A stretch of DNA of 64,000 nucleotides from Fodinisporobacter ferrooxydans (GTDB lineage: Bacteria; Bacillota; Bacilli; Tumebacillales; MYW30-H2): assembly GCF_022818495.1 (NCBI RefSeq), contig NZ_CP089291.1, forward strand, positions 3,613,501-3,677,500, in the 5' to 3' direction. Every line of letters starts with the position of its first letter. Positions within the stretch are counted from its first letter, which is position 1. The position numbers and the translations under genes were made by a program. Under the pieces are notes generated by a model. The model did not search any database, was not told where the DNA came from, and saw only the letters and a list, made by a program, of their open reading frames with translations. Of this stretch, positions 5,137 through 23,523 are shown in pieces.

Positions 5137-6144
5137 ATGATCAAAGTTGCCGTTGTCGGAGTAAACAAAATTGGACTGAGGCATTGTGAAGCATATAGGC
5201 AAAATCAAGATGCAAAAATAGTTGCCGTTTGTGATTTGCTCCCGGAAAGAGCATCTTCTGCTGCCGTACAGTATGGTGCAAAAGCCTATACGGATGTAAG
5301 GAAATTGTTGGAAAATGAGGAGATTGACATAGTAAGTATTGCAACAGCTGGTCCGGAAAATGGCGGACACCATTTTGAACCGACCATGCTTGCAATCAAG
5401 GCAGGAAAAAATGTATTAGTCGAGAAACCGCTTTCCAATACTATTGAGGAAGCAAGAGAAATGGTTGCAGTGGCAAGACAACACAAAGCAAGGCTTGCTT
5501 GTAATTTAAATCATCGCTTTGTACCTGCAGCTTACAAAGGAAAAGAGTTAATTCAAAATGGCGTTCTTGGTCAAATTCTATTTGCCAATATGAAGCTTAC
5601 GATTAAAAACCCAAGTGAAACCGGCCCATGGATTCACTTGCGAGCTCTGCATCCGCATTCGATTGATGTGATTCGGTATTTTGCCGGGGATATCAAACGA
5701 GTTCAAACATTTATGACAAAAGCTCCAGGTCGTTCGATTTGGTCGACTGCATCGATAAATCTGGAGTTTACATCGGGAGCTGTCGGGCATCTTACAGGAA
5801 GTTATGATATGTCTAATTTTCATCCGATTGAATACTGTGAAGTAGCCGGTGATAAAGGTCGATTTGTGATTGAAAATATTTATGATAATTTTACGTTTTA
5901 TCCGCATAACAGCAATGAACAACTTGTGATTCGAAACCCGGTTTTGGGAAACTCCATAAATTTTCTGGATACGTTTAAAAATCGTCTAAACGAATTTGTC
6001 AAACAAGTAAAAGAGGGAGTTCCTGCTGACAAGATCACAGGTTCGGGAGAGGACGCCCTTGCCGCACAAGAAGTGATCGAAGCAGCGATTCGTTCCCAAA
6101 TGACAAATGGTGCTGTGGTAGAAGTTCCAAATACAGTTGAATAA
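5137..6144 (+). CDS. Gfo/Idh/MocA oxidoreductase 1
   Basis: 335 residues. The N-terminal Rossmann fold starts IKVAVVGVNKIGLRH and reaches the hallmark EKP motif in VLVEKPLSNT. The C-terminal alpha/beta dimerisation domain contains LNHRFVPAA and RALHPHSIDVIRYFAGDI, whose His residues fit the active-site position of inositol and sugar dehydrogenases. It should oxidise or reduce a sugar or cyclitol with NAD(P). It is closely related to the next gene, so the pair probably arose by duplication. The ATG at 5137 follows AAGAGAGGA. Confidence 0.88.
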   Translation: MIKVAVVGVNKIGLRHCEAYRQNQDAKIVAVCDLLPERASSAAVQYGAKAYTDVRKLLENEEIDIVSIATAGPENGGHHFEPTMLAIKAGKNVLVEKPLSNTIEEAREMVAVARQHKARLACNLNHRFVPAAYKGKELIQNGVLGQILFANMKLTIKNPSETGPWIHLRALHPHSIDVIRYFAGDIKRVQTFMTKAPGRSIWSTASINLEFTSGAVGHLTGSYDMSNFHPIEYCEVAGDKGRFVIENIYDNFTFYPHNSNEQLVIRNPVLGNSINFLDTFKNRLNEFVKQVKEGVPADKITGSGEDALAAQEVIEAAIRSQMTNGAVVEVPNTVE

Positions 6145-6180
6145 ATAATGGAAAATTCGGAATGTGATGGAGGAGTTCTT

Positions 6181-7170
6181 ATGACGTTAAAAGTAGGTGT
6201 CGTTGGAGTAGGTAACATTGGGAGTATTCATGCATCTGTCTACAAAGATAACCCCAAAACAGAGCTCGTTGCTGTTTGTGATATTGTGAAAGAAAAGGCG
6301 GATGCTGCGGCAGTGAAATTTGGTGCTCGTCCATTTTATAGCGTTAGAGAAATGTTAGAAAGTGGTATTCATTTGGATGCGTGCAGTGTTGCGACAAAGG
6401 GTGTGGAAAACGGCGGCGAACATTTTACACCGACGATGGAATTGCTTGAGGCGGGCATTCCTGTTTTGGGTGAGAAACCGATTTCGAATAGAATCGAAGA
6501 AGCAATCCAAATGGTAGAATGTGCGTTAGACAAAAAACTGCCGTACGGGATCAATTTAAATCATCGATTTACTCCCGCAGCTATCCGTGCAAAAGATTGG
6601 GTAGAAAGCGGTCGACTTGGAATGGTACATATGATCAACATGCGGATGTGGATTAACAACCCTGTGGAAAGCTCATTATGGTTTCATCTTCGTGCCCTGC
6701 ACCCACACTCCTTTGATGTGATGCGCTACTTCTGTGGAGATGTGAAAAAAGTAGCAGCGTTCATGATGAAGGGGGAAGGTCGAACCATATGGTCCAATAC
6801 GCAAATTATTCTTCAATTCGAAAATGGTGTGATTGGCAATTTGGTTGGAAGTTATGATGCAGGTTTGAGTTATGGCTTGGAGCGTTGTGAAGTTGTTGGA
6901 TCGAAAGGGAGATTTGTATTAGACGACGCTTGTGAACAACTTACATTTTATCCACGGCACAGTATTGAGACAGAAACCTATCATTACTTGGGCGGCATGC
7001 GTTCATTTAATGAGACGTTTAAAAGTAGAATTACCGATTTTATTGATCAGCTAGCTGCCGGTATGAGCCATGACGAAATAGATGGATCAGCAGAAGATGC
7101 ATTAAAAGCTCAATTGATTATCGAAGCAGCGATCCGGTCATGGGAAACGAATCAAATTGTTGAGTTATAG
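6181..7170 (+). CDS. Gfo/Idh/MocA oxidoreductase 2
   Basis: 329 residues, colinear with the preceding paralogue: GVVGVGNIGSIH nucleotide loop, GEKPISNR motif, LNHRFTPAA, and RALHPHSFDVMRYFCGDV. Two tandem dehydrogenases beside an isomerase suggest one oxidises C-n of the substrate and the other reduces the epimerised ketone, or that they serve two epimers. The start at 6181 is fixed by GGAGG seven bases upstream. The operon appears to continue 78 bases later into the sulfatase-fold gene. Confidence 0.88.
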   Translation: MTLKVGVVGVGNIGSIHASVYKDNPKTELVAVCDIVKEKADAAAVKFGARPFYSVREMLESGIHLDACSVATKGVENGGEHFTPTMELLEAGIPVLGEKPISNRIEEAIQMVECALDKKLPYGINLNHRFTPAAIRAKDWVESGRLGMVHMINMRMWINNPVESSLWFHLRALHPHSFDVMRYFCGDVKKVAAFMMKGEGRTIWSNTQIILQFENGVIGNLVGSYDAGLSYGLERCEVVGSKGRFVLDDACEQLTFYPRHSIETETYHYLGGMRSFNETFKSRITDFIDQLAAGMSHDEIDGSAEDALKAQLIIEAAIRSWETNQIVEL

Positions 7171-21020: not shown

Positions 21021-21211
21021 TACGCATATTTCCTCTCCGTGTTTCACTCCATGTTTTATTTTAATATTGAATTTTTTAAAATCTAAGATGCTGCAATTAA
21101 TCGTTTTACTACCTCATTTTCGTCTAAAAAAGTTGTGATCGCAACTGGGATTTGCGCTGAATCGACAGTGGTTGCAGTATGCCAATGATACAACCGAATA
21201 CGAACCATATG

Positions 21212-21249
21212 TTGACATTTGTCTATTCAACTACTACTATGGTAGTAGT
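21212..21249 (+). promoter_or_regulatory. TrmB promoter with overlapping palindromic operator
   Basis: TTGACA (21212-21217), a 17-base spacer and TACTAT (21235-21240) make a near-ideal promoter. A perfect inverted repeat ACTACTAC / GTAGTAGT with spacer TATG covers 21230-21249 and overlaps the -10. TrmB-type regulators bind TACT...AGTA palindromes, so autorepression is likely. Confidence 0.75.
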
Positions 21250-21265
21250 GACGGAGGTGGTAATT

Positions 21266-22036
21266 GTGCCCATAGAATTGGCCGAAGAACTACGTAACAT
21301 CGGATTTACCGAATACGAGGCCAAAATCTATATTGCATTGGTCAAGCGAAGCCCATTAACCGGTTCAGAGGTGGCGCGGCTGTCAGGGGTTCCAAGTGCG
21401 AAGGTGTATGCGACCTTGGAAAAACTGACCCAACGGAATCTTGTCAGCACGATTTTTGGGGACTCGGTGCGCTATGTGGCAATAAACCCTGATGAACTGA
21501 TAGAGCGTTATAAATTTTCCATGGTTTCGACTCTTGAAAAGGTTCGGGACGGACTCATGTCATTACAAGATGGAGGTGACTCCGACCGATTCCTGTGGAA
21601 CATTCAAGAATACGAGGTGTTTATGCAGAAGGCAAAAACACTGATTCAGGAGTCTCAAGAGGACATTCGGGCCATTCTTTGGTCTCATGAGTATCAAACA
21701 TTTGCAGATGATCTGTCCAAGGCCGCAAAACGTGGAGTACACATCCACGTCATTACCGATACAAAGGAAATGATTTCGGGTATTCATACATATCATCACG
21801 TTTCCCTGTTCGCACAAGGCAGCGTTCCTCGACCTATGATCGTAGTACGGGATGAAAAAGAGGTTCTGATTGGTCTCAACGAGCAGGAGTGTCAGGCGAT
21901 CTGGTCTACGAATCCAGTTCTAAAAGAAATTGCACTTACACATATGAGGCACGAGATTGCCATTCATCAACTCTCCGGAAGTATTGGAGAGAACTCAATA
22001 CGTCAACATATTTTGGAAGCGGAGGGAGCAGAATGA
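21266..22036 (+). CDS. TrmB-family transcriptional regulator
   Basis: 256 residues. The winged helix at the N-terminus reads LRNIGFTEYEAKIYIALVKRSPLTGSEVARLSGVPSAKVYATLEKL. The C-terminal part resembles the PLD-like sensor of TrmB proteins (IRAILWSHEYQTFADDLSKAAKRGVHIHVI). The start is GTG at 21266, five bases after GGAGGTGG; the longer frame would begin upstream of the promoter. Its stop overlaps the next ATG (ATGA), coupling it to the AhpD/CMD gene, which is the probable target of its control together with itself. Confidence 0.85.
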   Translation: MPIELAEELRNIGFTEYEAKIYIALVKRSPLTGSEVARLSGVPSAKVYATLEKLTQRNLVSTIFGDSVRYVAINPDELIERYKFSMVSTLEKVRDGLMSLQDGGDSDRFLWNIQEYEVFMQKAKTLIQESQEDIRAILWSHEYQTFADDLSKAAKRGVHIHVITDTKEMISGIHTYHHVSLFAQGSVPRPMIVVRDEKEVLIGLNEQECQAIWSTNPVLKEIALTHMRHEIAIHQLSGSIGENSIRQHILEAEGAE

Positions 22037-22587
22037 CTCGTATTTCAGGCGTTTCTCAAGAAACCGCACAAGGATTCATTCGGGAAGTATTCGATGCGCA
22101 ATTGGAACGGTATGGAAAAGTTCTCGAAAATCATAAGCTTTATGCCAGAAGGCCATCGATCTTCAAAGCGGTACGTGGGATGTGGGCGGGGCTTGAAGAA
22201 TCCGGTCTTATCCCGGAACAGCTCGTTGCGCTCGTGAATATTCGAGTAGCCAACCTAAACGGTTGCCCTTTCTGAATGGACATTAACGCTGCCGTTGGCA
22301 GTTCGATTGGAATTCCATCAGAAAAAATTCTCGCTTTGCCACAATACAAAACGAGTCCGTTGTTCGGCGAACGTGAAAAGCTGGTTTTGGAGTATGCGGA
22401 TGCTATCACGTTTTCCGATCAGAATGTAGATGATCGTTTATTTCAGCGATTACGTGAGGAGTTCTCTGAAAATGAGATCGTTGAACTTACGGCCTTGATC
22501 GCTTGGGAGAACTTTTCCAGTAAATTTAATCGGGCATTGCGAATTCCATCTCAAGGATTTTTTCATGCAGAATGTGACACTGACTAG
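22033..22587 (+). CDS. AhpD/CMD-family selenoprotein candidate (CxxU, in-frame TGA)
   Basis: 184 residues if the TGA at 22273-22275 is read through as codon 81. Before it the frame ends RVANLNGCPF, and after it continues MDINAAVGSSIGIPSEK without a frame change. In CMD/AhpD proteins this place is NGCxxC, so TGA replaces the second, peroxidatic-type Cys, giving C78-P-F-U81. The C-terminal half (VLEYADAITF, EIVELTALIAWENFSSKFN) is intact family sequence. A hairpin with G at the start of its loop lies 19 bases after the TGA. It would be a thiol/selenol peroxidase-like enzyme. The ATG overlaps the TrmB stop and follows GGAGGGAG. A nonsense mutation is the alternative, since neighbours are decayed. 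No sel genes are in the window. Confidence 0.7.
22273..22305 (+). promoter_or_regulatory. Candidate bacterial SECIS hairpin
   Basis: The TGA at 22273-22275 is followed by CTGCC (22289-22293), loop GTT, and GGCAG (22297-22301). CG at 22287-22288 and CG at 22304-22305 extend the stem across a TT bulge. Loop G to TGA distance is 19 bases, inside the range usual for bacterial SECIS elements, which need a G near the start of the apical loop. Confidence 0.55.
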
Positions 22588-22601
22588 GGAGAGGATCGAA
22601 C

Positions 22602-22655
22602 ATGAGCAAGATTTCCAAAACGCCTGAGCCACTCTATTACGCCTTTAAAATTTAA
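22602..22655 (+). pseudogene. Truncated antibiotic-biosynthesis monooxygenase remnant
   Basis: Only 17 codons remain: MSKISKTPEPLYYAFKI then TAA. The opening TPEPxYYA is the conserved start of ABM-domain monooxygenases, and GGGAGAGG stands upstream. The body of the gene has been deleted. Confidence 0.5.
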
Positions 22656-22686
22656 AATAAACGATTAAACTGGGAGTGGGTATCGA

Positions 22687-22794
22687 TTGAAAACGATTAA
22701 AAAGATGTATGATCGTTTAAATTGGGCAAACCAACGCATTCTGGAATCCTTGAAAAATATTGAAAATGAAATCGAACATGCGAAACGCTTATGA
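22687..22794 (+). pseudogene. Truncated DinB-family protein remnant
   Basis: 35 codons from TTG, reading LKTIKKMYDRLNWANQRILESLKNIENEIEHAKRL. This is the first helix region of DinB/YfiT-like four-helix-bundle proteins, which are normally about 150 residues. It is preceded by GGGAGTGG, and then the frame stops, so the gene is broken. Confidence 0.55.
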
Positions 22795-22848
22795 TGATCA
22801 AATAGTACGGTGGTTAAAAGTAAAAGCTTAAAGAAAAGGGTGGATACA

Positions 22849-23523
22849 ATGGCTTTGTTTGATGAAAAAGCGAACACCTATGATGATTTCTGTCTCACTC
22901 CAATCGGTACATTTGTCGATCGGATAGAACGTGATATGATGGCTGCCATAGCACGTCCGGTACGAGGGGAAAAGGCGATCGATCTTGGCTGCGGAACAGG
23001 AACCTACGCCTATTGGTTACGTGATATGGGACTTTCTGTGGTAGGTGTCGATCTTTCACAGGACATGCTTGAGGTAGCACGCGGCAAGCGGAAGAATGAG
23101 GTTACTTTTCAGAAAGCCGACCTCGCTCATTTACCTTTTGGCGACAATACGTTTGATTTGGCAATTTGTAACGTTGTTCTTGAATTTATAGACGAACCGG
23201 CAACTGTTTTGCGTGAAGGATTTCGTGTTTTAAAACCCGGTGGTCGCTTGATTGTCGGTTGTATCAATAAATATGGGGCATGGGGAAAGAAGTATACGAG
23301 GCGTGGGCAAGAAGATCCCATGAGTATATACAGCCACGCTCAATTTTTATCTTATGAGGACATTCTAAAAATCGGCCCAAACAAGCCGACTGACGTTCGA
23401 TTTGGTCTCTTTGTAGAACCTGAGGAGTTTCGGGATTTTGAAATTGCCATCCAGTTGGAGCAGACACACCGTCAAAGACAAGATAATATAGGTGGTTATT
23501 TTGTAATTCGATTTGAAAAATGA
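22849..23523 (+). CDS. Class I SAM-dependent methyltransferase
   Basis: 224 residues. Motif I is AIDLGCGTGTYAYWL, followed by VVGVDLSQDML, FQKADLAHLPFGDNTFDLAICNVVLEF and RVLKPGGRLIVGCINKYG. This is the UbiE/COQ5-like methyltransf_11 family; the substrate, a small molecule, cannot be told. The ATG at 22849 with AAAGGGTGG upstream is preferred to the GTG at 22810. It is intact but surrounded by gene remnants. Confidence 0.85.
   Translation: MALFDEKANTYDDFCLTPIGTFVDRIERDMMAAIARPVRGEKAIDLGCGTGTYAYWLRDMGLSVVGVDLSQDMLEVARGKRKNEVTFQKADLAHLPFGDNTFDLAICNVVLEFIDEPATVLREGFRVLKPGGRLIVGCINKYGAWGKKYTRRGQEDPMSIYSHAQFLSYEDILKIGPNKPTDVRFGLFVEPEEFRDFEIAIQLEQTHRQRQDNIGGYFVIRFEK

Follow-up and report, generated by a model that had tools for sequence, protein, structure and literature searches.

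An in-frame TGA at the active site of an AhpD-like protein of Fodinisporobacter ferrooxydans is very probably a selenocysteine codon

A stop codon that falls in the middle of an active site may be an ending or an instruction, and which of the two it is decides whether the gene that carries it is a ruin or a going concern. This is the question raised by a gene at 22033-22587 on the forward strand of the window, our term for the whole 64,000-nucleotide stretch of Fodinisporobacter ferrooxydans DNA that was analysed (G+C 42.8%). Read through, the frame comprises 184 codons and runs MTRISG...LNGCPF-TGA-MDINAAVG...CDTD-TAG without a shift to a TAG stop at 22585-22587. Its sole in-frame TGA, codon 81 (22273-22275), stands at the position of the second active-site cysteine in the motif C78-P-F-U81 of an AhpD-like (CMD domain, YciW-related) protein. 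A Shine-Dalgarno-like GGAGG, read from the sequence, lies on the same strand at 22021-22025, 7 nt 5' of the ATG at 22033, and in the read-through translation the Pfam CMD domain (PF02627) spans the TGA, covering residues 41-123 with 30.2 bits against a gathering cut-off of 23. The first-pass annotation had reported a TGA at exactly this cysteine, with family sequence on both sides and no shift, and had called the gene a probable selenoprotein. The TGA is real, and the call is supported by the decoding genes of the genome, by TGA in ten homologues and by a hairpin in all 11 genes of the clade that these homologues form with the window gene. On sequence grounds we consider it very probable that TGA codon 81 encodes selenocysteine (Sec) and that 22033-22587 is an intact selenoprotein gene.

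The window and the Sec decoding genes lie on one contig of 4,856,687 bases. The genes that the first-pass annotation proposed looking for, selA, selB, selC and selD, are all accounted for: selA is found at 598.7 bits, selB at 352.5 bits (387.5 when a second piece is included), and tRNA-Sec at 60.5 bits against a gathering score of 47, with ARAGORN calling it tRNA-SeC(tca). There are two selD genes, of 412.9 and 364.9 bits, each of which itself contains one TGA, in the contexts AG-U-GCK and AG-U-ACK. The pair (L032, G000:C1:2685729-2686658, plus strand; L033, G000:C1:147069-147986, plus strand) carries the TGA at the usual Sec position, with a predicted hairpin downstream in both; one selD adjoins selA, and L033 is distant from it. 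About 17 kb before the window lies a formate dehydrogenase alpha-subunit gene (L076, G000:C1:3594769-3596778, plus strand) with an in-frame TGA in NRT-U-HAPSVVSL; three further formate dehydrogenase matches above the family cut-off in the same genome contain no internal stop. Since the window gene, the two selD genes and the formate dehydrogenase gene all carry TGA, the genome holds at least four predicted selenoprotein genes, a count for which formate dehydrogenase was the sole enzyme family searched besides selD, and 22033-22587 is the fourth of them. The genome also has a second CMD-type gene (L011, G000:C1:4068965-4069327, minus strand), with an ordinary CxxC and a His at +4.

A search for related loci returned 11, nine of which are 53-68% identical to the window protein over the best segment and have TGA at the same codon without exception (9/9); the remaining two (L021 and L022, 27-32% identity) have Cys there. 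By record title the nine belong to a Neobacillus, two Acidobacteriota, three Chloroflexi, one of the Gammaproteobacteria, one of the Planctomycetota and one metagenome-assembled genome (MAG) named only 'bacterium'. A tenth TGA homologue comes from G052, a genome of the host's own order. Aligned over their whole length the ten are 54-69% identical to the window protein, and together with it they bring TGA at this codon to 11 of 11 clade members. Among eight homologue genomes searched, selA scores above the cut-off in six (in one of them as two halves); in G405 only a 75-bit piece turned up, at the edge of a contig, and G404 gave no match, and in both cases the locus is titled MAG.

In a sample of the host's class, two of 398 genomes match at E<=1e-30, the host and G052, with TGA in both; in the host's order selA is above the cut-off in all 13 other genomes listed, and G052 alone among them has an AhpD-like Sec gene at E<=1e-30. 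A phylum sample yielded 15 matches at E<=1e-15 in 12 of 398 genomes, comprising, beyond the window gene, 11 with CxxC, one with Ser-x-x-Cys (L052), one that starts past the motif (L053) and one with TGA (L055). The comparison of CxxC and CxxU homologues suggested in the first-pass annotation thus gives ten genes with TGA, and Cys in the more distant ones with a readable motif, save L055. This last gene (G761:C50:791-1303), a distant AhpD-like relative from the same phylum, has its TGA in NSCRY-U-LSSH, followed 20 nt later by an 8-bp hairpin with the loop GTT, and stands as a Sec form of the fold separate from the clade.

Downstream of the TGA, RNAfold predicts a bSECIS-like hairpin at 22288-22302 (plus strand), with a 6-bp stem (22288-22293 paired with 22297-22302) and a GTT loop (22294-22296) whose first base is G (22294). 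The stem begins 12 bases past the TGA; counted the same way, the loop G is base 19, which leaves a spacer of 18 nt. The first-pass annotation had drawn a stem-loop at 22287-22305 with a loop-start G 19 bases after the TGA; the hairpin and the position of the G stand, and the extent was slightly too wide. Published constraints for bSECIS elements, as given in the legend to Fig. 2 of PMC13188914, are a loop of 3-9 nt, a stem of 4-16 bp, a G among the first two loop bases, a distance of 16-37 nt from the UGA and a minimum free energy of at most -7.5. In a scan that used our own coding of these constraints, not the bSECISearch program, 10 of the 11 clade genes fall within them, the exception being L016, and the window gene passes, in the kind of scan that the first-pass annotation had proposed, exactly at the limit of -7.5. 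Among the TGA trinucleotides of the window, 2361 with both strands counted, 51 satisfy the same constraints by chance. A simple stem counter favours another, overlapping pairing in the window gene and in L016, and an Rfam scan of 21900-22900 found no curated RNA family, with one chance match at E 7.8.

The weight of the hairpin lies less in its shape than in its company. The TGA has a hairpin after it in every clade gene (11/11), whereas each of the Cys genes examined (7/7) shows a weak one there or none; energies across columns 15-31 (17 columns) run from -7.5 to -11.9 in the former and from 0.0 to -5.5 in the latter. In one Cys gene, L068, a 6-bp hairpin lies further 3', 27 nt past the Cys codon. 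Silent sites under the hairpin are conserved, with Ala86 written as GCT in 10/11 genes, Ala87 as GCC in 9/11 and Gly89 as GGC in 10/11, against a top-codon share elsewhere of 0.36-0.50 in other conserved Ala columns and 0.36-0.55 in other conserved Gly columns; codon conservation is lower for Val88 (0.60), in the loop, and Ser90 (0.50), at the base of the stem. Because 19 of 200 shuffles of this stretch of the window gene fold at least as well as the native sequence (z -1.31), and because covariation comes down to a single compensatory cell, found in the Planctomycetota gene, and 39 of 500 shuffles attain its score, the hairpin is backed by conservation and not by covariation; the genes vary too little there for covariation to serve as proof, and that line was dropped. 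Taken by itself the window hairpin is weak evidence; its support beyond chance is its conservation in the ten homologues.

Upstream of the gene, on the same strand, a TrmB-family regulator gene (21179-22036) ends within the selenoprotein start, stop and start sharing the four bases ATGA at 22033-22036, an overlap from which it seems probable that the regulator controls the selenoprotein gene here. A search for a TrmB relative at the ten other loci, some with short flanks, found none (best tblastn E 0.30), and we rejected the coupling as a feature that defines the family: the TrmB-coupled version remarked on in the first-pass annotation is true of this genome and was not seen at the ten other loci searched. 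Downstream, between the selenoprotein and methyltransferase genes, lie a short ORF of 17 codons plus stop (22602-22655) and a plus-strand ORF of 35 codons (22687-22791), remnant-like and without a Pfam match at E<=1, which presumably resembles a DinB start and has no part in the proposed mechanism. Both look like leftovers of deleted genes; the first-pass annotation had described the neighbouring genes as decayed. A methyltransferase gene is found downstream here and in two of the three Chloroflexi loci, and no inference is drawn from it since the mutual likeness is weak (23-24%, E 3e-5 to 5e-5). In the three Chloroflexi MAG loci (L015, L017 and L018; about 5400-6530) the selenoprotein gene lies directly 3' of a gene like lspA, which encodes signal peptidase II, and the gene order is conserved, the lspA call resting on Pfam in L015 and on similarity of the translations in L017 and L018. 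At the Neobacillus locus a DinB-superfamily gene lies nearby, together with transposase-like fragments that were read from translations.

Two other readings of the TGA deny that it encodes an amino acid at all. One holds that an ordinary Cys-type AhpD-like gene in a decaying region has suffered a nonsense mutation, TGC or TGT to TGA, and can point to the two remnant-like ORFs downstream and to the Cys at position 81 of more distant homologues; the first-pass annotation had itself entered this caveat. A mutation of that kind would have had to strike the same codon in the ten other clade members (10/10), in several phyla, and would leave unexplained the hairpin, the conserved silent sites beneath it and the full Sec machinery in the genome. 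Nor does the frame decay beyond the TGA. In pairwise comparisons among the window gene and its counterparts in G052 and Neobacillus, dN (NG86) comes to 0.23-0.25 for the part 5' of the TGA and 0.25-0.27 for the part 3' of it, a likeness which indicates that both halves are under similar constraint; dS (NG86) was saturated and not computable in five of six comparisons and 2.39 in the other. Because dN is alike in both halves and the TGA is common across phyla, a recent nonsense mutation is excluded, and because TGA and hairpin are conserved in all 11 genes, with a weak hairpin or none in the Cys relatives, the caveat is untenable; we regard a pseudogene as exceedingly improbable. The other reading divides the frame into two genes, the first ending at the TGA and the second re-initiating at the ATG at 22276. 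It has in its favour that the codon after the TGA is ATG in the window gene, where the ORF listing splits the frame and begins a 103-aa ORF, and in the three Chloroflexi genes as well. The split would fall inside the active-site motif of the CMD domain, and seven of the 11 genes continue after the TGA with ACA, CAG, CGC or CAA, none of them a start, so re-initiation is excluded as a shared mechanism and strikes us as scarcely credible for the window gene. Mechanical ORF calling, in other words, cuts the gene in two at its active site, and reading the TGA as selenocysteine restores a complete enzyme.

With selenocysteine as the preferred reading of codon 81, the relatives that make do with cysteine become informative. 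A tblastn search of a plasmid collection matched 468 records, none at >=60% identity, and the seven homologues taken from them all have Cys at the Sec codon (7/7). In a tree of 22 rows the 11 TGA genes group together (96/99), separate from the Cys proteins, and five Cys proteins including E. coli YnjA form a clade of their own (98/99). The two clades join in a three-way fork with a Halocatena/Deinococcus pair, in a tree with long branches among its outer rows, and the Sec clade may or may not have the YnjA-type clade as its exact sister. Because L055, with its CRYU motif, falls outside the Sec clade, the Sec label needs two changes on the tree. The outcome is a clean contrast, of use in asking why Sec has been kept in active sites of the AhpD type, between 11 Sec members with a hairpin and nearby Cys relatives with a weak one or none.

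What such an enzyme would do is suggested by its predicted fold. AlphaFold2, given an alignment of 11 rows in which Cys replaced Sec, returned a best model with pLDDT 85.4 and pTM 0.82, the other four averaging 71-74. Foldseek ranks first by E-value PA0269 (2ijc, of unknown function), P. aeruginosa AhpD (7xw1) and, third, the debrominase Bmp8 (6ohj, TM 0.84), followed by D. radiodurans AhpD (6k40, TM 0.86) and 2oyo (TM 0.87); M. tuberculosis AhpD matches the model weakly, with E about 0.3 and TM 0.55-0.57. The good match to the AhpD proteins of D. radiodurans and P. aeruginosa points, as far as the model goes, to an AhpD-type fold with a CxxU active site. In AhpD the second residue of CxxC, whose position we equate with Sec81, is presumably the attacking nucleophile, and four residues past it stands H137 (M. 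tuberculosis numbering), which we take to be the proton-relay His. The clade has Asn85 at this +4 position in 11/11 members in place of the His of AhpD, whereas the shorter AhpD-like paralogues and relatives have His there, in a CxxCxxxH motif. The idea that Sec compensates for a lost proton-relay His was rejected, because four of the seven Cys homologues (L066-L069, from Aeromonas, Ilyobacter, Cupriavidus and Plesiomonas) also have Asn at +4.

By analogy with AhpD we infer that the most likely role of the window protein would be that of a thiol peroxidase whose nucleophile is Sec and whose resolving residue is Cys78. In the sequence of events we envisage, SelB, bound to the hairpin just 3' of the TGA, would deliver Sec-tRNA when UGA codon 81 is reached, and translation would run on to yield an all-helical AhpD-type protein of 184 residues with the active site Cys78-Pro-Phe-Sec81. 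Sec81 would then attack a peroxide or a similar oxidised substrate, Cys78 would resolve the resulting selenenic acid by forming a selenenylsulfide, and re-reduction of the enzyme would fall to a cellular thiol system. Judged from the fold, peroxide reduction is somewhat more likely than not to be the main activity. The protein might instead be a selenoprotein whose main reaction is a different one, such as reductive dehalogenation or reduction of another electrophile in the manner of Bmp8, a structurally similar protein titled a debrominase in the PDB, which works with a Cys pair. Besides its place in the Foldseek ranking, Bmp8 (6ohi) is the second-best PDB profile match, with 67.6 bits over positions 17-169 of the 178 in the profile, and the invariant Asn at +4 sets the clade apart from the paralogues with CxxCxxxH. 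Identity to Bmp8 is about 20%, however, the same Asn occurs in those four Cys relatives, and the other Foldseek matches at E<=0.001 are titled AhpD, 'peroxidase-related' or 'antioxidant defence', titles that for most of them point to no tested activity; we think a main reaction of this other kind unlikely. Less likely again is the compound proposition that the clade of 11, with its CxxU and its Asn at +4, is a distinct and strictly Sec-dependent family whose reaction is not peroxide reduction (Bmp8-like dehalogenation, for example) and which is here under the control of a TrmB-family regulator.

The gene adds, on well-supported grounds, a new member to a type of selenoprotein known from sequence surveys. 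The first-pass annotation had considered the class known, and so it proves: PMC1088965 labels 27 AhpD-like CxxU selenoproteins from the Sargasso Sea as COG2128 in 2005, PMC2398784 counts 299 'AhpD-like 1' sequences in the GOS survey of 2008, AhpD-like selenoproteins, MCB9421940.1 for example, are tabulated in the reviews PMC9312934 and PMC13188914, and an NCBIfam family already bears '(seleno)protein' in its name. Searches of the open-licence literature found no paper on a TrmB-linked selenoprotein gene, brought YciW and selenoprotein together only in one review already cited for its AhpD-like tables and, for the host group, returned no mention of a selenoprotein among the matches listed.

Set beside these known systems, the window protein lies closest to NF053654 (GroundWater_YciW, 'YciW-related (seleno)protein'), NCBIfam's nearest named family, which is matched by 11/11 clade proteins, at best with E 5.5e-88; for the window protein the score is 259.8 bits over model positions 1-177 of 179 and for that of G052 265 bits, both under the equivalog cut-off of 310, the former by 50 bits. 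Against TIGR01926, the peroxidase-related enzyme family, the window protein reaches 29.5 bits where the cut-off is 81.8. The COG2128 (YciW) AhpD-like family of the Sargasso Sea and GOS surveys, as described in PMC1088965, PMC2398784 and PMC9312934, shares with the window gene both the CxxU motif and a predicted bSECIS element; its members are marine metagenome sequences, likened to the window clade by description and not by sequence, and the tie to COG2128 runs through the YciW name of NF053654 and not through a COG search. The YnjA-type carboxymuconolactone decarboxylase family proteins of E. coli and others are the nearest well-supported Cys clade, with the motif C-x-F-C-V-D-[IA] in 5/5 rows, and differ from the Sec clade in having Cys and not Sec, and a hairpin that is weak or absent at that place. 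Further away, the AhpD of Deinococcus radiodurans (6k40) and the 'peroxidase-related' proteins 2oyo, 2prr and 2pfx share the fold over nearly the full length, yet lack Sec and are only about 19-21% identical to the window protein. The debrominase Bmp8 (6ohi, 6ohj) likewise has the same fold, a similar length and a Cys pair at the same place, but no Sec, similarly low identity and a specialised substrate.
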